From assembly GCA_023627715.1 (NCBI GenBank), contig JAMAHW010000001.1, positions 1,240,001-1,304,000 on the forward strand: a stretch of DNA of 64,000 bases, given 5' to 3'. This DNA comes from Periconia sp. R9002 (lineage: Eukaryota; Ascomycota; Dothideomycetes; Pleosporales; Periconiaceae). Numbering within the stretch: the first letter of the stretch is position 1; each line of letters starts with the position of its first letter. Position numbers and translations under genes: made by a program. Under the pieces are notes generated by a model. That model saw only the letters and a list, made by a program, of their open reading frames with translations, was not told the origin of the DNA and did no database searches. Below, piece after piece: positions 48,801-60,699 of the stretch.

Positions 48801-49624
48801 GATTGTACGTTCTTTTTCAACCGGATGAGTTGACGGTGAGATCCGCTGAAGGGATGGAAGTGAAGCGAGATCAAAAGTTATGAGTGATGTAACATTATGA
48901 TTATATCTAGCATTGCGCAGGCGTTATGTTCGGGCTGCCCTTTTTCTACGACCCACATGTATGATGGTATGAGGATGGTCAGAGCGAGCAGTGGGAGCTA
49001 TTGAATTACCCCGAGAACAAAAATAAACCAACTATTCAATGAAGTCGCGTTTCGGAATTAGTGATTCCCACTTTTCTCTATCCCGCTATATTTGTGATGA
49101 GTGGTGTTGTGGGGAGGTCGTGATGCTTGAAGGATGCCAAGATAGATATTTCTTCGTTCCTATTAGACATGTTGGAGTATGAATTAGGCTCCACAAGGGT
49201 ATGTTTTTGTGTCTATACAACTTACGCTAATTGTACCCATGAAGTTTGTAATAAAAAAAGGGCGTTCATTGAACCAATCAGAGAAGTCTAAGTGCGAGAA
49301 ATAAGCTTTGCCGCCCTTACGTATGTTACTACTTTGAGAAGACATTCGGATGGCGGGAACGATGGTGGTGAGAATGAGCTGTTTTCATCACTGTTTGTTC
49401 TCAAGATGGTTTGTTGCAAAAATCCACATTATGTAGGAGAGAAGGAGTCGATACATAAATTGAAGATGACGCTCTTATCCACTTTCTATCGTCATCACCA
49501 TCAAAACTTCGAAGCCCACTGAGAACTAACTAAACCCCAACTCTAAAGCATCTCGTCGCACAAAGGAAAATCCCTAACCACTCTACGCCCCCATAACATC
49601 AAAAGTATACAAACCAAAAGCAAG
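48801..49624. other. Intergenic region
   Basis: 3' flank of EDC3 and promoter of the DUF1749 gene. No gene seen. Confidence 0.5.
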
Positions 49625-50587
49625 ATGGCATACCCAGGAACCCTCCACCGCTACAACCGCCGCCTCGTAGCCTTCGAGCACGCCAACCCCACCTCGACCA
49701 ACTCACCACCACGCAACACCCTCCTCTTCATCGGCGGTCTAACCGACGGTCTCCTAACCACCACCTACCCCTCCAAAATCGCCGCCCACCTCCCCCCGAA
49801 CTGGCGCCTCGCCGAAGTCCTCCTCACCTCTTCCTACAGCGGATGGGCGACGGGCAGCATCGCACGTGACGCCCGCGAACTGGGCGAGTGCGTGCAGTAC
49901 TTCCGGAACCTCACCTCAACATCCACCCAAACCACCGACCAAGATGCCAAAATCGTCCTCATGGGCTGCTCCACAGGCTGCCAAGACGCGCTCGAATACG
50001 TCATCGGCGCCGACCGCGCCCAACGTCCCCCCATCAACGGTATCATCCTGCAAGCCGGCGTCAGCGATCGCGAGGCCTGGTACGACATGGCCGCGCGCAT
50101 GCCCTCGCCCTCGGATAAGGACGAAAACATGCTGCCCGCCCTCGAAGCCGCACTCAACATCGCTACTAAGTTGAAGAACGAAGGGAAAGGCGACGAAATC
50201 ATGCCGAGAGACCACGACATCGTCCGCTCCGTCATGGGCGAGGCTACGACGGCGTATCGCACGTGGAGCTTACTCGCGAAAGGTGGGGACGACGATTTCT
50301 TCTCGTCGGATTTGAGTGATGATGCGTTGAAAGCCACTTTCGGAAGTATCGGTAATGGCGTACGGGTTGCGTTGATTTGGGGAAGCGAGGACGAGCACGT
50401 ACCTAAGCATTTAGATAAAGAGGCGGTTTTGGGGAAGTGGGCGGGGTTTGTGAGGGATGGGGGTGCGGTGTTTGATGACGAGGCGAGTGGTGTGCTACAG
50501 GGCGCGTCGCATACTTTGAATCGGGATCCGGAGGAGGTGGTGGCGGCGTTGAGGGGGAGGGTTGGGGGGTTTTTGGAGAGGGTTTGA
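49625..50587 (+). CDS. DUF1749 alpha/beta-hydrolase (SidJ-like esterase family)
   Basis: Single exon, 320 residues, normal for the family. The start LHRYNRRLVAFEH precedes the strand-loop NTLLFIGGLTDGLLTTTYPS. The nucleophile elbow is GCSTG with Ser116 in VLMGCSTGCQDALEY; WGSEDEHVP holds the probable acid and His296 in GASHTLNRD completes the triad. DUF1749 includes the siderophore esterase SidJ of Aspergillus, which hydrolyses fusarinine-type siderophores, and conserved proteins of unknown substrate. No siderophore genes are visible nearby, so the substrate is left open. It is the last gene before the repeat array. Confidence 0.88.
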   Translation: MAYPGTLHRYNRRLVAFEHANPTSTNSPPRNTLLFIGGLTDGLLTTTYPSKIAAHLPPNWRLAEVLLTSSYSGWATGSIARDARELGECVQYFRNLTSTSTQTTDQDAKIVLMGCSTGCQDALEYVIGADRAQRPPINGIILQAGVSDREAWYDMAARMPSPSDKDENMLPALEAALNIATKLKNEGKGDEIMPRDHDIVRSVMGEATTAYRTWSLLAKGGDDDFFSSDLSDDALKATFGSIGNGVRVALIWGSEDEHVPKHLDKEAVLGKWAGFVRDGGAVFDDEASGVLQGASHTLNRDPEEVVAALRGRVGGFLERV

Positions 50588-50970
50588 GGGGGAGGAAGAT
50601 GCGTATATTGCGGGTAGTTACGAAGTTAGTTAAATGTAACTAGGGGTGGTTACAGTACGTGATGAGTGTCTTATTATGTTATGTCACGTAGTGTCTGGAT
50701 AACGGACGACTGTGTACCTGGAGTGAACACATGGTGGTGGTGTGGTGGTGGTGAGGTTCTTCATCATTGTTCGTTATCACGCCCGCCCCCTCATCAGGTC
50801 ACTCTTAGCTAGTTTGGCGTGTATATGTATGAATCGATTAAAACCACGCAGACATGAATATGCTACCGATCCCATTTTCATGAATAAGTACACCAAAGAA
50901 GAAAAAATCCAACAAAGTAAACCACGCCACCACCCATCCACCGATCCAAACATATTATGTTTCTCGGTAT
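50588..50970. other. Intergenic region before the array
   Basis: 3' flank of the DUF1749 gene with GGTGGT runs near 50732. No array motif seen here. Confidence 0.5.
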
Positions 50971-50976
50971 CATTTT

Positions 50977-51180
50977 TCACACACATGTAAACGTCGCTTG
51001 CCTCCCTTTGCCATGGCAGTACTTCTCTACTTCTTTTTCTTTCCCCCCTGCCAAACATGAGAAGTTGCTTTTTTACTATGTCTTTACACATGTAAACGTC
51101 GTCTCTCTCCCCTTCCCATAAAAAAAATCTCTACTTCTTTTTCTTCTTCCCCTCCCTGCCAACATAACTCTCTCATTTAT
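50977..51180. repeat. Left-edge duplication of the array
   Basis: Two ~105-base units start with ACACATGTAAACGTCG (about 50981 and 51086), continue with pyrimidine-rich text (CTACTTCTTTTTCTT) and end CCCTGCCAAACAT or CCCTGCCAACAT. They differ from the main array by being C/T-rich, but the ACAT ends and spacing idea are the same. Confidence 0.75.
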
Positions 51181-51299
51181 CGAATTTCACACACACGTAC
51201 AATTCCCGTCGTCGTCGTCCTGTTCGCACGCCCACACACATGAAGTCTCAAATGTACCCTTGTATCTTTTTTCGCCCTATAAATTGACGAAGACGAAAA

Positions 51300-52990
51300 G
51301 GAGAGCAGGACACGACCATGTGTTCTATTCGTGTTGGATTGTAAAGTGACGGACCGGGGCCCGCGAGAAAGACATAGAACAAGGCAATGCCCAGTTTCAC
51401 ATATGACCAACCCTGTATTCGTTTTTTTTATTTATTTACTTGGGGGAGCGGGACGGACATGTATACGGTTCGTTGGGCGTTTTGCACATGGGCGATTCGT
51501 TGTATTTGTTTTCTAGTCTGGCGACGACCATATCTACATACCGTGTAACACTTTCACTCCGAATCACACACATCGCTGCCTCTGTATCCGTTTTTTTATT
51601 TATTTGGGAGGGCGGGACGGACATCGCAATGTCTTAGTGGAGTTTCAGACATCTTGAGATCATTGCATAGTTTTTATTCCAGAGAGCAGCTCGACCATAA
51701 AACTTGTTTCTTTTCGTCTTGGATTATAAAAGGACAGGAGCTCGGGAGACAGAGAAGACATGTCAGCATTCCACGCCCAATCTCACACATTGCTGGTACT
51801 CCTCACTGTTTTTTATTTATTTGGAAGAGCGGGACGGACATGGCAGCATTCTTAGTTGGGTTTCAGACATAAGCAGTTCATAAGTAAGTATTCCAAAAAG
51901 CGGGCGAACATGTAAACCTCGATTCTCTCATTTTGAATTAAATAAGGGCGGGAGGCGCCCGAGAAACATACAATGGGTCGAGTTCCAGTTTTACACATAA
52001 CCGAATTCTCCTCATCGTTCTTACGGAGAGCAGGACAAACATATTCGTCCATTGCTCCAAATCTCGCACATTACCAGTTTCAATCCTTGTGTGTTCATTC
52101 TAGAGAGCAGTTCAACTATGTATACCTAATTCCTTTGATTTTAAAATATGAAAGGACCGCCAGAGCCGCTCGAGACAAACATGGGATTGTTTCGTACTCG
52201 CTTTTTAGATGTTTATCTGTTAATTAACGTTGTCTTTTTCTATTAAATAGAGAAGAGGAGGAGAACAAAACGGACATATCAAGGATTAACTCCCATTCTT
52301 AGACATATTTAGGTTCTGTTTGTTTTTTTATTTAGGAGAGCAGGATAGACATATCTACGCTTCTCGCTCGAAGTTTCTAATAAACTAAACTGTTATTGTT
52401 GTTTATTTAGGAGAGCGTGATAAACATTATCACGCGGTGTTCAACGCTTTGGAAATTCCCTCTCCATAGTCGGTATTTATTTAGGAATGCGGGCCGAACA
52501 TGCATATATCTCGGTTTCGGTTTTAGATATTACTATTCCTTTACTTAGTTTTTTTTATTCCGAGAGCAGGATAAACATGCCTGTGCTGCTGTCGAGGCTT
52601 TAGACATGAGCGCTTTTTCTCTTTGTTTGTATACCGGAGAGCAGCCGAACATGTCAACCGTTCGCTCTACGTTTCACAAATTCTTGATTCCATTCTCATT
52701 TTTTTATTCCGGAGAGCGAGACAAGCATGGTAAAGGTTCCTTCGCGTTTTCACACATCGCTACCGCTGTATCCGTTTTCTTATTGTTTGGGGTGTTTCGA
52801 CTTTTTTCTTCAACAAGTTGGAGAAGAGCAGGACGGACATATTAGTTCTCTAGTCTAAAGCTCACACACAATAGCTTTGTCCCGTTTTTTATTCGGGGGA
52901 GCGGGTCGAACATACGAACCGTCCACTTCCAGTTTCAGACATAATGGCTTTGTCCCGCTTTTTTTAACCTGGAGAGCGGGTCGAACATAT
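51300..52990. repeat. Left half of array, ~75-base units
   Basis: The ends of the purine-rich elements fall at 52277, 52352, 52427, 52501, 52578, 52652 and 52728, i.e. steps of 75, 75, 74, 77, 74 and 76. Outside that block the steps range from 56 to 112. The strongest copies, with GCGGGACGGACAT, are at 51448-51460, 51612-51624 and 51829-51841. Confidence 0.85.
51334..51375 (+). repeat. Long-class array element, first example
   Basis: Begins TTGGATTGTAAAG and ends CGCGAGAAAGACAT. Other long-class copies: 51719-51761, 51931-51969, 52139-52182, 53614-53649, 53897-53931, 54038-54075, 54192-54229, 54346-54382, 54421-54461 and 54700-54737. Many contain TATAAAA or TTAAAA near their start. Confidence 0.7.
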
Positions 52991-53589
52991 CTACTCTCCG
53001 CTCCCAACCTCAGACATAGCTTGAGTTCGGTACTCTTTTCTCATTTATGAATAATGTGTCTCGCTCTTTTGTACGGTTTAGAGAAGAGGGAGGGGGGAAG
53101 AGAGCAGGACATATCTACCCTCCAATCCAAATCTCACACATTGACAAGTGTCAAATTCTTTTTTTATTCCGGAGAGCAAGACGAACATACCACCCCTCTA
53201 ATGGAAATTTCACATATAAAGAACTCGGTACTCTTTTCTTGTTCATGTAGGGAATCGTCTCGCATTTTTTGTACAAATAAAAAAAAGGGAGGGTGCGGAG
53301 AAGAGGAGCAGGACGAACATAGTGCTTGTTTGCTCGAGTTCTGAAGGATGGGAAGGAGGAGGGGGCAGGGACACACATGGCTGTTGCTGCCGCTGTATTC
53401 TAAGGGGCGTAGGTTTTGCGCTCGCGTGTTTTTGGGACAGACATAGCGATTGTGTATGCGGGGTTTAGTAATAGGAAAGAGGAAGAGAGCAGGACGGACA
53501 TAATCGTTGACGTCGTAGTGTTTTATAGAGGAGTAGTTTCTAGGCTCGCGTATTCCTGGAATTGAAGAAGACCAAAGAAGACCGGAGCA

Positions 53590-55410
53590 GACATGATATA
53601 TCTGGATGAGTTCTTTTAAACTATAAAAGACGGATCCCAGGCCGCACATGATTCTACTTCCGTTATCCTTCTAGTTACATGAAGTAGGTTGTCCAGCGGT
53701 TTATTCTTAGACTTCAAGAAGACCGGACAAACATGTTTCCTGAGGGTTGCTTTTTTGATGATGGGAAGGAAGAGGCCGGGACGGACATCGCTATCGCTGC
53801 TAATGTATTCTATAGCGAATGGTTTTTAGATGTGTGTATTCTCTAGAACTAAGGAAGACAAGCCAGCACAACGAGCATCGAATAGTCGAATACATTCTTT
53901 TAATTATGAGAAGACGAAACCGAACGGACATGGAAACGGTTCTCTGGTATTTGTACACATAGTCTGTTCTCCTTCTTTTTATTCCTTGACTTAAATAAGA
54001 CAAGCCGCCACAACAAACATGGTATACTGAAATACCAGATTTAAACAATTAAAAGTCGGAAACCGAGACGGCCATGTATGGTGAGGTTCTAATGTTTCCG
54101 TCTAATCCCAAATAATCCATTCTTGCCCTCTGCATCTTCGAATTGCAGAGGACAAGAGGAGAGCAGGACGGACATCACACCATTGCTGTTTTCTTTTTAA
54201 CTACTAAAAAGATAGACCCCGGGACGCATATTATTCTCGGGCGTGTTATCCTTCTAGTTACATAAAAGCTATTAGGCAACCTTTTATTCCTAGAAGTACA
54301 CAACACACACACACCACAAGGAACATAATCTTTCTGAGTAGCAGGTTTTAATTTTAAACGAGAAATACCCCAGGAAGCACATAGTACCGTTTATGTTTAA
54401 GTCTAAACCTTGGGGTAGTAGGTTTTAATTATAAAAAAGACGAACCCCCCAGGCCAGACATAACGGCTTTTCTCTAGCAGTTGTAGTTGCACATGTAGCA
54501 GAGCACTACGCCATTTTATTGAGAAGATGCCCCCTTCTTCTTTTCTTATGAAGGTGGGAAGGAAGACAGGGACGGACATTATTTGCGTACATTTCAGGTT
54601 TGATTCATTTCATAGGAGAGTGGTCTTTTTTAGTGTGTGTTTCTAGAATTGATGACGGCGAAAGAAGACCGGAACAAACATGAAACTTTTCAACCACCAT
54701 TTTAAATTATTGAAAAGACAAAACCCAGGCCGGACATACTAGTTTTTTTTTAATGCAACTGTACATATTATAGGCTCTGTTCGGTTTCTTTATAAGATCC
54801 TCCCTTCCTTCTTTCTTATGGAATTGGAGAGGAAGGGGACGGACATGTCTCATGCGTCGTTGTGTTATTTTAGCGGAGGAGAGGCTGGAGAACGGGACGC
54901 ACATAAAAGACAGCAAAGAGCAGGACGGACATACCCTCCACGTAGATGTGGGGTTTTGTAGCAGCAGCCTTTCACATTGTGATGTGGTTATATTTTAATA
55001 AAGATCGGAAGAAGCCTAAGGCCAGAACAAAACATGGTGCTTCTTGAGCGCTATCTTGAACTGGGGGAAGAGAGAGCCAGGACAAACATTTCCCTCTTTC
55101 AGTAGCATTTTTACAGCTGAGCAGTCTTTCATGCTGCTAGTGTTGGTGCTGGTTAATAAAAATTAGAGAGGACAAAAGGCAAAACAGGACATATTGTTTT
55201 GGCAGTGATGTTTTGAGATGCGATTGGAAAGAGCCCGGGACGGACATAACTAGTTTTTGTGGTAATTTTAGACGTGAGAAGTTTCTCATTATCAGTTCTA
55301 AAATCCCCTTTGTATTAATTGGAGAAACCAAAGACAAGAACGGGCATTATACCTGTTTCGAGGGAGTTGTTTTGAACTGAAAGAGATTGGAGAGCAGGAC
55401 GGACACGTTC
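53590..55410. repeat. Right half of array, ~150-base double units
   Basis: Element ends at 53594, 53649, 53734, 53788, 53878, 53931, 54020, 54075, 54175, 54229, 54326 and 54382 give steps of 55, 85, 54, 90, 53, 89, 55, 100, 54, 97 and 56. Order within a unit: purine-rich element, ~19 bases, long element, ~19 bases, short element such as TTCTAGTTACAT, then the next unit. The purine-rich element drifts here to GAAGACCGGACAAACAT. Confidence 0.8.
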
Positions 55411-56165
55411 ATCCTTTTCCTGTACTTTTAAACGGAAGCTGTCTGCCATATTTGTTCGGATCTTTGTTTTTTAAACAAAGACACTAAAGCTCAGGCTAGA
55501 TATAGATTGGGTTGTTGTCTAACCTCACATGTTGACCGGCTATCCATGTTTTAGGTAGGTCCCCGTTTTCAAGTCAAAGGAAACGGACCAGAACGAACAT
55601 GGTGCATCTGATCCTTAGCTTCGACACTATTTTAGGAGCCATGTCGTGATTTTTCCCACCTTTCATTATTTGATTTATTCATTCTAGATATCATGAAACT
55701 GAAGTTTGAATGATCAGGGAAGAAGACGAAGACCGAACGCACATGATTGATTTGACTGCTGTTTTAATTCCATCTCTACTAATCCTCTTGCGCTTCTCTT
55801 CTCCTCATAATTCTAGCATCCAAGTGGTTCTGGATTTAATGTCACGCTTCGCAGAAGCGCGGATATTGATGCATATTGCCAGCGGAATTCTACATGAATA
55901 GTTCGGTGTGTGATTTCCTTTAGACCAACACGAACATGATTGGCTTGAGGTAACGTTTTAATCCAGATTCGTCCTTCGTGTTCATAGGCTTTTCTCCCCT
56001 CAGATCCCATGGAACCCTCCCACCCTCTTTTTTTGATTCAATCGCTTAGAAGCGCTCAAACATGCTGGATCTTTAAAGTTTCTTTTTACTATGAACGACC
56101 GGTAGGATGATTGAACGTACAAAAGATGGACAATGCCCACACATGAGAATTTCCACCAAACCTTG

Positions 56166-59073
56166 CTAATGGGCCGTCTCGATTGTAAAAAATCACGAAA
56201 AAATGGATGCCCTCTTCGAATGACCACGCTCTGTTTGGATCAGACCGCTATCTATGACTGAAAAACTTATGAGTTGATGACCATGGCTTAAGTCCAGAAC
56301 ACCTTCTGGATATTGAAAGGTGCCAACCTCGTACACATGATTTCTGATCTTTGGCAGAGTGAAATCGAACAGAATAAGTTCAAAAACATAAATGTTTTAG
56401 AATCTTTGGAAAATGCCTCCAAAACATAAGAGGGGGATCTGATCTCTCGGAACATGGTCGAGCAATAGTCGCTTTTTGAGAAACGAGATATCAATCAAGA
56501 CGGTACAACTGGGAAGAAGAAGAGAGGAGGAGGACAAGAGAAGGAGGTTGCTTTTATATGATTTTACGTTACACAAAAGGCACGTGAAGATGTGAGGAGT
56601 TAGTCCAAATGAGATGGTGTTTAATAATCAAGCATACCGCTCCTGGCGCCTAGGAGAAAGTCGGAGATTATGGATGTAATTAGACCAATAGCTTAACGCG
56701 AAGTCGTCGTAGGTGCTACTACAACTGTTACCAAAGAGATTGTCAATTGTCGCAGCGGTGTACTCGCCCGCACTCACAACACTGACCAGTCCACATGCAA
56801 CTCTTCGAGGGTCTGTTTCCTCTAATACTATAGATTTCTTAATAGTAAGTAGGATACTAGGAAAATATTTCTGGGGTATATTTTTAGTACTTTTTATCTA
56901 GGTTTACTACTTGAGAATACAGTGATTTTTGTAGACATACTACAGGTGCTTCACAATAATATTCAATGTTTGTGAGTGCGGGATATATTGACACCCGCGT
57001 GAATCGTTACTAGAAAATAGCTATCCGAGTCAATGTGGCTCGAGAACGATCAACTTGTACGACAATAAAGAGCTGGACCACTGCGAGAAATGCGGTGTTG
57101 CAGGTCAACAAATAATTACGTGGCAAGCGGACATGTGCGGATGCACGAGTCGGGGCTCATAAACGAGCACTCAGCCAACCACCGACCTCACAACTAAGTG
57201 TGGAGTAGACACACAAATCCTTATGTAGCCCCAGGCCAATTATTTTCCGAGCCGATATAGTTTGCAAAGAGCTGCTGCTACGTGCATGCGCGTACGACGC
57301 AATGCTTCCTAACTGCATTGTACGGAAGCGCATGGCATGCAGCGCTCGAAAAAAATGTGGCGGGCTGAACTCAGATGATCCTACATGCTTCGTTCCCCAA
57401 TGGGTACGTCGGCTCGCCCGAATCATGCAGTCGGGAGCAAACACGACCAAATTCGGAATACGAAAGCTTTCTGGAGATCCCGAGACGTCCAGTGCAGCCT
57501 CATCAACCCCAATGCACTGAGTCGCTTGGAAAGTGGAGAACTGTCAGGTCGCCGTTCAACGTGCTTTAGTTGTACAAACCCCATCTTAGATAGTTTTTTT
57601 TTCCATCAATGACAAAAAAAAACTCGCCTCTGCGTGTAGTCCACCTCATAATTTCTACTTGCAGCAAGATCATAGAATATAATGGCGCTGTCGAAATGTG
57701 GGGTCCATATGCCAACGACACAGCGCCCCGATCGGCTATAGCACGTATCAATTCTTGCATGATGTACGTACCGTAAACCAAATGCCTTACCACCTCGACC
57801 TGTGACATACGTGAAGCTCTCGAACATTGAGCGGATTAGATGGATAAACAATCAACTCTGACCTTCAACTCTTACGCGAAAATTGTGCCGGTGAATGCAT
57901 CAAGCCTACTGTGATCAATCGATGCAGTTTCCTCTGTTGCAAGCCTTGAGCAGCACAAAGCCGGGAATTGCGGCACACATTTAGTAGAGTAACTGCATAG
58001 AGAGGTTTAGCCTTCCAGTTGCAGCAATAGTTTCCTGGAAAAATGCAACGGTGCGCTATCGACATGTGGACTGGACGTTGCCCTTGGAGAAGACTTGAGA
58101 TCAATCGCTTAAGACATCCCAATTAAGTCCAATCAATATAAGTTTGGCAGCTGAGTATGCACAGTGAAGATTGCAAATCGAACGGGAATCCCTCCGTGCG
58201 GAGTCTAAGCGTCGTAAAATTCGTGTGCGGTTTCCTGTCATATGCACGCCATGAATCGAAGGACGACGGCTGTGAGGCTCGGCATCGTTTCTAGGGAAGT
58301 TTCTGCATAAACAAGCTCTAGAATCTCTGATAGGACCAATGATGTATCGAGTAACCGACCTTGCTCAAATAGAGTAGAGGAAGTCTGACCATTTGAAGTT
58401 TACACACAGATGCGGGTGCGGTCACATGAACGTCTGGGTTCTAATTGATAGTCGCGAAACATCAAAGTAATACGCAATTGGAGGCTATAATCCGTCCAAA
58501 GTTTTCAAAACATCTAGACATGTCAATTTCTTGAATAATATGCACGTAATTACGATTGAGCGTCAGACCCATATTGCAACATCAATTCAAGCAACGCATC
58601 TGACGGTAGGGGTGCGTCACCCAGGATATTGCATTCACTCATATGGAATCTGTGTTCAGTTATGAATTGGGTTTAAAAAAGCCCAAGAATTGGGAAATAC
58701 GGCGCCAAGATCTCATTGGAGCATATAACCGCTGCATGCTGTAACATCCGCTCTGAGAAATCGGCGACTACATGTCGGACTCGACGATCACTAGTCGCGC
58801 CTAGATCCCATTTGCATGACCAGCTAGCCACGCATAGATTCATTCATCGTAAAAGTAGGCATGTTTACGGCAAGACAGTTGACCCCGCAGAGGCAATTGA
58901 GTAAGGTTGGGCGGTAAGTGCAGCCTCGTGTATGTTCGACTCCACCTTCTCAGCTTTACGAGAGCTGAATGGATGCAGCCAAGGATATCCGAGAAGCGGG
59001 CAGTCCGGTGTGGTGAGCAAGAGGAGTGCATCGTGAGATGGTCAGTGAGCTGGTATGTGCGAACGAAGAGGTG
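56166..59073. other. Gene-poor A+T-rich region after the array
   Basis: About 2.9 kb with only short, unrecognised frames on both strands. No transposase, reverse transcriptase, terminal repeat or RNA gene was recognised. It may contain old, decayed sequence. Confidence 0.5.
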
Positions 59074-59080: not shown

Positions 59081-59217
59081 ATTGTCCCAATATCTCACAG
59101 CTACAGCAACAAAATCATCTGTCCAAGATCCATTCATTCTAGCAAATCCTCACTTGCTGGAACAAAAGTTCGCAAAGACTTCTAAGCCTTCAAAATCATT
59201 TGACTCATTTTATCACA

Positions 59218-60699
59218 ATGCCATCTTCAATCCCTTACGACCCCAGCCTCGTGTTGGCAAACGTTGTCGACAACAAGGCCCTCAGCCTCATCCAGTCCAT
59301 CGCCGCAGCGGCGGCTCCCGCTGATGCAGCCCAAAACGACCTCAATGCTTTGATTGCAATGCGACGCAGTCTTGACATGACTCGGAATGAACTCGTGAAT
59401 CTAGGCATCAACACGAAAGCCTGCAACGATGAGTTAAACACACTGAATACCGAGATCACCTCCGCTGCAGAGGACTACGTCAAGAAGAAGATTACAGCCG
59501 AGAAGCAAATAAAGCCTCTCCGTGCGCAGATCAAGGGTGTCCAAGCCCAGGTGGAGAGCCCAATCGACTATACCAAGACGCAGATCAAGTCCATGCCTCT
59601 CGCATCCGACTCCATGAACATGGATGTCCAATACTTCTCCATGGACTCCAATGTAGAGAGTGCAGAGGCATACGCTAGCGCCATTGCTACCTTCGTCTCC
59701 GCCTCCACCAGCTGGATGGGTGTCAATGCATCCAAGGATATGTCGACTGCTGCCCAGAAGCAGGTCTCGTCCCAAGCCCAGAAGCACAACCTGTCCGGCA
59801 CGCTCGTATTGTCGGTCTCTTGCACCCACAAGAACGCGTCTATGCTTGCACCATTCGTCCTTGATGTCGACAAGGCCATCAACACATGGAACCACATTTT
59901 TCCCAATGACTCGTTCGAGCCAACCAACCGTCAGCAGATGATGCAGATCGCGCGCGCCAGGCAGGACCCTGGAACTGCCAACAAGTACAGCATTCTCTCG
60001 GGAATGACATTCGGCTCCAGCTTTGTCGGTATGGTGCATGTGTTGAACAGCACCGACAGCAAGATCCATGAGACAATGACCAGCGCTGCTCAGTCCCTCC
60101 AATCTCAGATGGATGCCGGTGCTTGGTTCGAACATGCCTCGGGTGGTTTCGGTGTGAACAGCTCCATGGCTGCCGACGTGAAGAACCTCCTGTCTTCCCA
60201 GAACGTCACCACTCACGTCACGTTGATCTCCATGGGTGTCATTCCCTCCATGGTGGCAAGCGAGGTGAAGCTGGGTGTCCAGACCTTCGCCAAATTCGAC
60301 CCCAAGAGTTCGATGGAGGCCATCGCTTCTCTCCAGAACTCGGTTGTACAAGGCCAAGATAGCCTCAAGGCGAGTGCGCAGGCTGCTAGAACTGGAAAGC
60401 AGATGGTGACCATGAAGGGCATGGAGATCAAGGCTGCTTTGGAGGGTCTCGCAGAGATCGACGATGGCCACAACAAGGTTCTCGACATCAACTCGATGAT
60501 GTCCGCGCTTGATGACTACCTCAAGAAGGCCGCCGAAGGTAGTAGCGGTGTACCTCTCAACTACTTCTTGAAGGACATTTCGAAGCTGGATCTGGCGCAG
60601 GCTTGGGCGGCGAAGTATTACCCCGGTCAGTACCAGCAGGCCATCACTCACGATGACACCACTCCGGCTCGTCCTGCCGCAGGTACTTCTAGTACTTAG
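59218..60699 (+). CDS. Unknown 493-residue soluble protein
   Basis: Intronless, starting MPSSIPYDPSLVLANVVDNK; codon use is regular and C-ending, unlike the A+T-rich surroundings. No signal peptide or membrane segment is evident. Residues ~50-130 are helical (LDMTRNELVNLGINTKACND, EDYVKKKITAEKQIKPLRAQ). Next comes a folded-looking region with LSGTLVLSVSCTHKNASMLA and PFVLDVDKAINTWNHIFP, then YSILSGMTFGSSFVGMVHVL, HVTLISMGVIPSMVASEVKL and a C-terminal helix pair ending with LAQAWAAKYYPGQYQQAI. I believe related proteins exist in other ascomycetes but know no function. A clear TATA box upstream suggests regulated or strong expression. Confidence 0.85.
   Translation: MPSSIPYDPSLVLANVVDNKALSLIQSIAAAAAPADAAQNDLNALIAMRRSLDMTRNELVNLGINTKACNDELNTLNTEITSAAEDYVKKKITAEKQIKPLRAQIKGVQAQVESPIDYTKTQIKSMPLASDSMNMDVQYFSMDSNVESAEAYASAIATFVSASTSWMGVNASKDMSTAAQKQVSSQAQKHNLSGTLVLSVSCTHKNASMLAPFVLDVDKAINTWNHIFPNDSFEPTNRQQMMQIARARQDPGTANKYSILSGMTFGSSFVGMVHVLNSTDSKIHETMTSAAQSLQSQMDAGAWFEHASGGFGVNSSMAADVKNLLSSQNVTTHVTLISMGVIPSMVASEVKLGVQTFAKFDPKSSMEAIASLQNSVVQGQDSLKASAQAARTGKQMVTMKGMEIKAALEGLAEIDDGHNKVLDINSMMSALDDYLKKAAEGSSGVPLNYFLKDISKLDLAQAWAAKYYPGQYQQAITHDDTTPARPAAGTSST

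Follow-up and report, generated by a model that had tools for sequence, protein, structure and literature searches.

An ACAT-rich region in the genome of the pleosporalean fungus Periconia sp. R9002 belongs to a set of eight or more degenerate tandem arrays with a short module in common, which consists of an A-rich element (AAA or AAAA), 18 or 19 free bases (N), and (Y)ATG, Y being a pyrimidine. The region, here called A1, lies in a stretch of 64,000 nucleotides of contig JAMAHW010000001.1 (the window, C1:1240001-1304000), which belongs to a 42.9-Mb genome in 267 contigs. We compared it with seven other arrays of the same genome (A2 to A8), which were read wholly or in part. In all eight arrays, the module has a preferred strand and spacing, and in the seven others it has a usual place behind a TATA box and a pyrimidine tract. 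Tentatively, at a probability of about 0.4, we interpret the arrays as rows of very short transcription units of RNA polymerase II (Pol II), in which the module would act as a two-contact signal in the nascent RNA, most likely for 3′-end formation or processing.

The ACAT array of the window

Between window positions 50950 and 56170, ACAT occurs 81 times (15.5 per kb), compared to 281 times in the remaining window (4.8 per kb). Its complement ATGT was counted 30 times in the array, so that the dense row of ACAT is strand-specific. A sequence-only reading of this DNA had described a variable segment of nearly constant length behind ACAT, followed by an element starting with T, and the counts bear this out. 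A TTT starts exactly 19 bases past ACAT in 40 of the 81 cases in the array, compared to 7 of 281 elsewhere in the window (Fisher test, p 2e-23); for 18 to 20 bases, the respective numbers are 50 of 81 and 16 of 281 (p 5e-26).

A two-block weight matrix, which was fitted by iteration with A1 itself as the training set, placed 79 sites in A1. The gap measured 19 bases in 54 of them, 18 bases in 12, and 17, 20, 21 or 22 bases in the other 13. The spacer length, the count of about 85 and the three classes of elements proposed in the sequence-only reading were therefore about right. At a score of at least 12, the matrix matched 78 sites on the plus strand of A1 and none on the minus strand, while the other 58.6 kb of the window contained two (plus) and six (minus) matches. 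According to the position profile, the information resides in the 18 bases up to ACAT and in TTTNA, with little in between. Distances from one ACAT to the next range from 13 to 283 bp, with 29 bp being the commonest. The end of the array had been put at 56165; scattered modules continue to about 56480, and the promoter described below lies beyond them (Table 1).

Self-BLAST of A1 yielded 29 pairs, all of them direct, with 60-88% identity and mixed unit length (lags near 75, 150 and 210 bp). In these pairs, which are selected for similarity, the mismatch amounts to 44% in spacers, 30% in linkers, 20% in the elements and 16% in the TTTNA block. Of 30 pieces compared by small-word self-BLAST, the piece of the window bearing A1 had 19 direct pairs, the others having three at most. 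By DNA search, no counterpart of the first 2.1 kb of A1 was found elsewhere in the genome.

Table 1 Positions of the arrays and of selected features. Positions given without a contig or locus name refer to the window.
Feature	Position	Strand	Remarks
Array A1	50950..56480	-	about 70 to 80 modules; minus-strand reading (T)AAA(A)-N19-(Y)ATG; plus-strand reading ACAT-N19-TTT
Example module	51824..51868	+	GAAGAGCGGGACGGACAT, then the 19-base spacer GGCAGCATTCTTAGTTGGG, then TTTCAGAC
Tandem pair	52861..53018	+	Tandem Repeats Finder, period 75, 76% matches; diverged spacers between retained elements
First module behind promoter	56452..56477	-	ATG is plus-strand ACAT 56452-56455; 17-base spacer up to the T-run 56473-56477 (A-rich element on the minus strand)
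Pyrimidine (CT) tract	56511..56548	-	downstream of the TATA box; transcription presumably starts at the tract end
TATA box ATATAAAAG	56551..56559	-	sole TATA and pyrimidine-tract promoter found in A1; module ATG 103 bp downstream
Array A2	L014:3200-9660 (C1:1307201-1313660)	-	3 kb past the window end; 12 TATA/pyrimidine promoters; same module as A1
Array A3	C3:71-79 kb		found via DNA similarity to A2
Arrays A4-A8	clusters on C60, C49 (A5), C15, C22 and C3:54-56 kb		among the listed places of a purine-tract pattern taken from A2 and A3
DUF1749 family gene (PF08538)	49547..50587	+	3′ end about 0.4 kb from the far end of A1

A module shared by eight arrays and its promoter-like setting

The module rule was obtained from A1 in its ACAT/TTT form, and A2 was then located with the A1 matrix: among 20 fetched loci, L014 had 14 one-strand matches at score 12, whereas the runner-up had five. 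For A4 to A8, one stretch was read per cluster among the first 100 of 286 purine-pattern places. A6 to A8 were read only after the rule AAAA-N18/19-ATG had been stated from A1 to A5. Since A3 was located by DNA similarity and A4 to A8 by the purine tract, and not by the module, the module counts in A3 to A8 are independent.

Over the eight arrays, AAAA ends 18 or 19 bases before ATG in 137 cases on the promoter strand and in 23 on the other strand (promoter strand/other: A1 53/6, A2 25/5, A3 26/6, A4 7/2, A5 6/2, A6 10/1, A7 4/1, A8 6/0). In 530 kb of control strand-sequence, gaps of 18 and 19 were found 61 and 65 times, within a range of 43-81 for gaps of 8-35, and thus without a peak. A looser rule (three of four A, gaps 17-20) identified 69 modules on the minus strand of A1 and 11 on the other. 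Of five anchors tried, ATG was the sharpest. The gap was 19 in 46 of 55 first modules, a count which favours 19 through its search order; the literal AAAA counts do not.

Apart from the module and its distance, the arrays have little sequence in common, and no pair of near-identical units was seen in them. A2 is more degenerate than A1, because its self-BLAST gave only one pair. First-module spacers within one array are 0.19-0.37 identical (chance, 0.25-0.30), compared to 0.53-0.78 for the TATA block in A2 to A8; the spacers of the three A6 units are the exception above chance (0.33-0.37 versus 0.25). In an alignment of A5, spacer columns lie mostly at 0.1-0.3 and flanks mostly at 0.7 or higher. 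Near-chance identity is not peculiar to the spacer, since the gapless 24 bases before the A element also come close to it in several arrays. Because other indel-prone stretches are likewise near chance in a gapless comparison, the near-chance spacers indicate a lack of constraint rather than diversification. The sequence-only reading had named spacers that align as diverged copies of one sequence among the results that would refute it. This is partly the case, since some A1 spacers can be recognised as relatives that have diverged, such as those behind 52988 and 53112. In A2 to A8, the spacers are at or near chance identity.

The spacers also differ from their flanks in composition. In all three groups (52 modules of A1, 51 of A2-A3, and 33 of A4-A8), the G+T fraction is 0.44-0.48 in spacers and 0.52-0.78 in flanks. 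In A2 to A8, the sequence is G/T-rich before the A-run and after ATG, and the spacer between them is not. TGTG/GTGT is found 1.8 times per 30 nt after ATG in A4-A8 (array mean 0.72), 1.1 times in A2-A3 (mean 0.45), and 0.40 times in A1 (mean 0.45).

A2 to A8 are rows of units on the strand opposite ACAT, with promoters mostly 250-420 bp apart and some longer gaps. A typical unit contains, in this order, a GATGATG...CATCATC palindrome, often a TTACTAA/TTAGTCA site, which we take to be bZIP-like, a TATA box, a pyrimidine tract ending in TTTACAC or similar, a G/T-rich stretch and at least one module. The succession of TATA box and pyrimidine tract on one strand is a feature of TATA-type Pol II promoters. 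Using a TATA plus pyrimidine-tract rule that was written after the arrays had been read, we counted 64 such promoters on the strand of the module ATG, one in A1 and 12, 15, 9, 8, 5, 6 and 8 in A2 to A8. Elsewhere, the rule gave one promoter on the other strand of the arrays, six in 414 kb of control strand-sequence and none in the rest of the window. As A4 to A8 had been found via the complement of the pyrimidine tract, their promoter counts are not independent, and only those of A1 to A3 are. A module ATG follows 80-130 bp downstream in 55 of the 64 promoters; in A2 to A8, the module is usually located 85-125 bp behind the TATA box and tract. In A1, a single promoter precedes about 70 modules.

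The palindromes and TTACTAA/TTAGTCA-like sites recur upstream of TATA boxes in loci L038, L039, L040, L041, L042 and L043, which suggests shared regulators. Long G/T-rich stretches extend past the presumed start on the promoter strand in L041 and L043; these might promote R-loop formation or result from a strand bias of transcription-associated mutation.

Whole-genome counts were compared to those of control patterns. The A1 form GACNNACAT-N19-TTTNA had 38 matches (reversed control, 21), seven of which are in A1 and the others scattered, and TTTACAC-N15-45-AAAA-N18/19-ATG had 58 (control, 25). The purine pattern was found 286 times (control, 199). YTTCTTTACAC showed no overall excess (95 versus 89), yet is clustered in the arrays, and a palindrome-to-TATA pattern had no match in the whole genome. 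Clusters of the TTTACAC or purine-tract pattern at C49:97-108.5 kb and C12:176.5-179.2 kb resemble further arrays.

A proposed two-contact signal and its possible readers

The arrays, the promoter-like signals and the module are directly visible in the DNA; transcription, a product and a reader of the module are what we infer from this architecture. In the explanation that we favour, each unit would be transcribed by Pol II as a very short unit, beginning where the pyrimidine tract ends (TTTACAC), and the signal would be read in the nascent RNA about 60 bases past the start. It would be composed of the A-rich element, the measured gap, YA and, in A2 to A8, a G/U-rich stretch. The products would be short non-coding RNAs, and A1 may give a longer transcript with many possible cleavage points. 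A measured distance between two short blocks, with no constraint on the intervening sequence, points to a two-contact signal; we propose that the contacts depend on their distance only and leave the spacer sequence free. Because the module prefers one strand and closely follows a promoter, a reading in nascent RNA is favoured.

The arrays resemble polyadenylation (poly(A)) sites in their A-rich element, which lies about 19 bases ahead of YATG in all eight of them, YA at the border, a G/U-rich stretch behind it (A2 to A8), and a gap of free sequence. According to a fungal review, the mammalian hexamer precedes the point of cleavage by 15-30 bases and a U/GU-rich element follows downstream, whereas yeast has no such downstream elements (PMC12667328). 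The gap of the arrays is stricter than the mammalian one. Yeast-type UAYRUA elements were not enriched upstream of the A element.

Several observations weigh against a signal for 3′-end formation. The ATG of the module is strict, and we know of no such requirement in 3′-end formation. In A1, no G/U-rich stretch follows ATG, and a strong first poly(A) site 103 bp past the sole promoter would cut off the remaining modules. Even where TGTG/GTGT is abundant after ATG, it is raised before the A-run too (1.14 in A4-A8 and 0.81 in A2-A3). Under the loose rule, the strand contrast is weak in A4 (9 versus 7), A5 (11 versus 13) and A7 (6 versus 7). At the ends of 106 long open reading frames (ORFs), AATAAA showed no excess at low power (13 sense versus 15 antisense). 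The counts of AAAA-gap-ATG at gaps of 18-19 were 3 and 5 there, without a peak; on the sense strand the highest values, 11 and 9, fell on gaps 16-17 and stayed within the antisense maximum of 12. As these ends have neither an AATAAA excess nor a peak at 18-19, the module is not visibly the usual poly(A) site of the organism. Finally, the promoter rule is post hoc, and the promoter counts of A4 to A8, which were found through the tract complement, are not independent.

A two-contact site bound in the DNA itself, although doubtful when taken alone, is nearly as likely as an RNA signal. A protein or dimer would contact the AAA and ATG blocks about two helical turns apart, the arrays would be many-site platforms (enhancer, silencer, chromosome-structure element or decoy), and the promoters of the sister arrays would be either unrelated to the sites or co-opted. 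Two short blocks whose spacing is fixed and whose intervening sequence varies freely agree with such a site, as do the many sites packed into A1 without an inner promoter, the lack of a consistent RNA structure and the missing G/U-rich stretch of A1. The gap profile, however, has no second peak one helical turn off (gaps of 28-30), which is a mild objection, and the module of the sister arrays prefers one strand and lies at a rather constant distance behind the promoter, neither of which an enhancer site would need.

We regard it as rather improbable that the arrays are an old functionless satellite, whose tandem copies decayed and whose regular spacing was inherited from a founder unit. The 29 direct pairs of A1 are indeed degenerate tandem copies, in which gap events per mismatch are similarly rare in linkers (0.023) and spacers (0.020). 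Direct tandem copies, variable unit length and a location in intergenic DNA are shared with minisatellites and satellites. However, the short elements of A1 are kept while the 19-base gaps between them drift (20% versus 44% mismatch), the spacers of A2 to A8 reach chance identity while their TATA blocks stay alike, and no homogenised copies or near-identical unit pairs were seen. Inside A1, Tandem Repeats Finder reported only one pair (Table 1), which argues against an ordinary tandem satellite. Moreover, the same module and distance recur in eight arrays that share little other sequence. The sequence-only reading had doubted that an ordinary diverged satellite would behave in this way, which proved right, and the module recurs in seven otherwise dissimilar arrays.

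Guide-like small RNAs appear quite improbable. Each unit would then combine a conserved start (TTTACAC...AAAA) with a unique segment of about 19 bases, A1 would be a precursor of many guides behind one promoter, and the loci would form a genome-wide set. The layout fits, with a start, an A-rich handle and a unique segment at or near chance identity beside TATA blocks that are 53-78% identical; the spacer composition, which differs from both flanks, and the single promoter ahead of about 70 modules in A1 fit as well. In contrast, 209 spacers of the eight arrays (loose rule) matched a 268-kb sample of the fungus's own genome no better than shuffled ones. At least 16 of 19 bases were matched in 22 of the 209, compared to 13 and 13 in two shuffles and 18 for reversed spacers, a weak test because the sample covers less than 1% of the genome. 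That some A1 spacers are diverged copies of each other also speaks against guides, and we know of no effector gene. The guide or spacer function considered in the sequence-only reading gained no positive support, and unconstrained spacers of fixed length, as expected between two contacts, give the same pattern. CRISPR arrays likewise have unique fixed-length segments between repeated elements, and A1 has one promoter before many modules. They differ from the fungal arrays, which lie in nuclear DNA and whose repeats are highly degenerate and unevenly spaced: instead of near-identical direct repeats at regular intervals, A1 has copies of 60-88% identity and ACAT distances of 13 to 283 bp. A scan of six proteins of the window revealed no Cas domain, and judged by the features compared here A1 is not a CRISPR array.

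Arrays of tiny protein genes, with the module ATG as the start codon of fast-evolving peptides, are hardly credible: ATG is the sharpest anchor and the distance of about 100 bp from promoter to ATG would suit a short 5′ leader, but reading frame 0 from the module ATG stays open no farther than frames +1 and +2 (first modules, n = 53, p 0.58; A2-A8, n = 135, p 0.86; A1, n = 71, p 0.86), and A5 carries a nonsense change and an indel inside a well-conserved stretch after ATG.

A coding signal was absent from A1, including its minus strand from the module ATGs. Rfam gave no match in the window, in seven array loci or in A1 at E values up to 1 (L037 lay outside the scan), and neither known RNA families nor tRNAs were matched. 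Neither GT nor AG is fixed at the module borders, as splice sites would be, and the middle TTC of A1 spacers, considered as a box B of RNA polymerase III, is not retained in the other arrays. There is no clear signature of repeat-induced point mutation, with a composite index of -0.20 in A1 (-0.60 to 0.08 in four blocks) and of -0.49 and -0.57 in the flanks. We also found no consistent fold across the array. Locally, the segments starting at 54001 and 54151 (54001-54350) have a better fold than any expected from 40 shuffles (z -2.8 to -4.6), and a short inverted repeat is located nearby at about 54125-54150.

Relation to described loci and significance

The sequence-only reading had mentioned arrayed small RNA genes, and this idea gains some ground because the sister arrays consist of serial TATA/pyrimidine promoters, usually followed by a module after 85-125 bp. 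In nematodes, 21U-RNA loci are clusters of separately started small RNA genes. The arrays resemble them in that many tiny units are clustered and that every unit has a promoter signal of its own, with a variable segment set off from it by a fixed distance. The fungal arrays differ in their TATA/pyrimidine promoters and tandem related units, and a small RNA is putative here. In ribosomal-DNA spacers, promoters are likewise tandemly repeated in non-coding DNA. Those of the arrays are of the TATA/pyrimidine type, and scans of the window and of seven array loci gave no Rfam match. A 5.8S rRNA gene was not matched in the whole assembly in one family search.

Genes of fungal type lie near A1, among them those for a cyclin, an FDF/YjeF_N protein and the DUF1749 protein. 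Between A1 and A2, a 518-codon open frame without Pfam match occupies window positions 59143-60699 on the plus strand. Locus L013 (C94:12800-22700) contains large direct repeats of 2.8 kb with 83% identity.

Each known family considered failed a defining test or gave no clear answer, and we could not match this type of array to anything described. A search of open-access full texts returned no description of such arrays, and no fungal locus built in this way is known to us.

If the gap carried information, the arrays would, as far as we know, represent the first guide-array-like system in a fungal nucleus. Even as a processing or binding site, the module with its strict spacing would help to identify the machine that does the measuring. 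If the units are transcribed, the genome would hold at least eight loci with more than 60 look-alike promoters for non-coding RNAs, whose only strict feature is a measured gap of 19 bases. Non-coding loci of this type would be new. They would also amount to a natural ruler experiment, in which a machine gauges the 19-base distance from an A-run to ATG.

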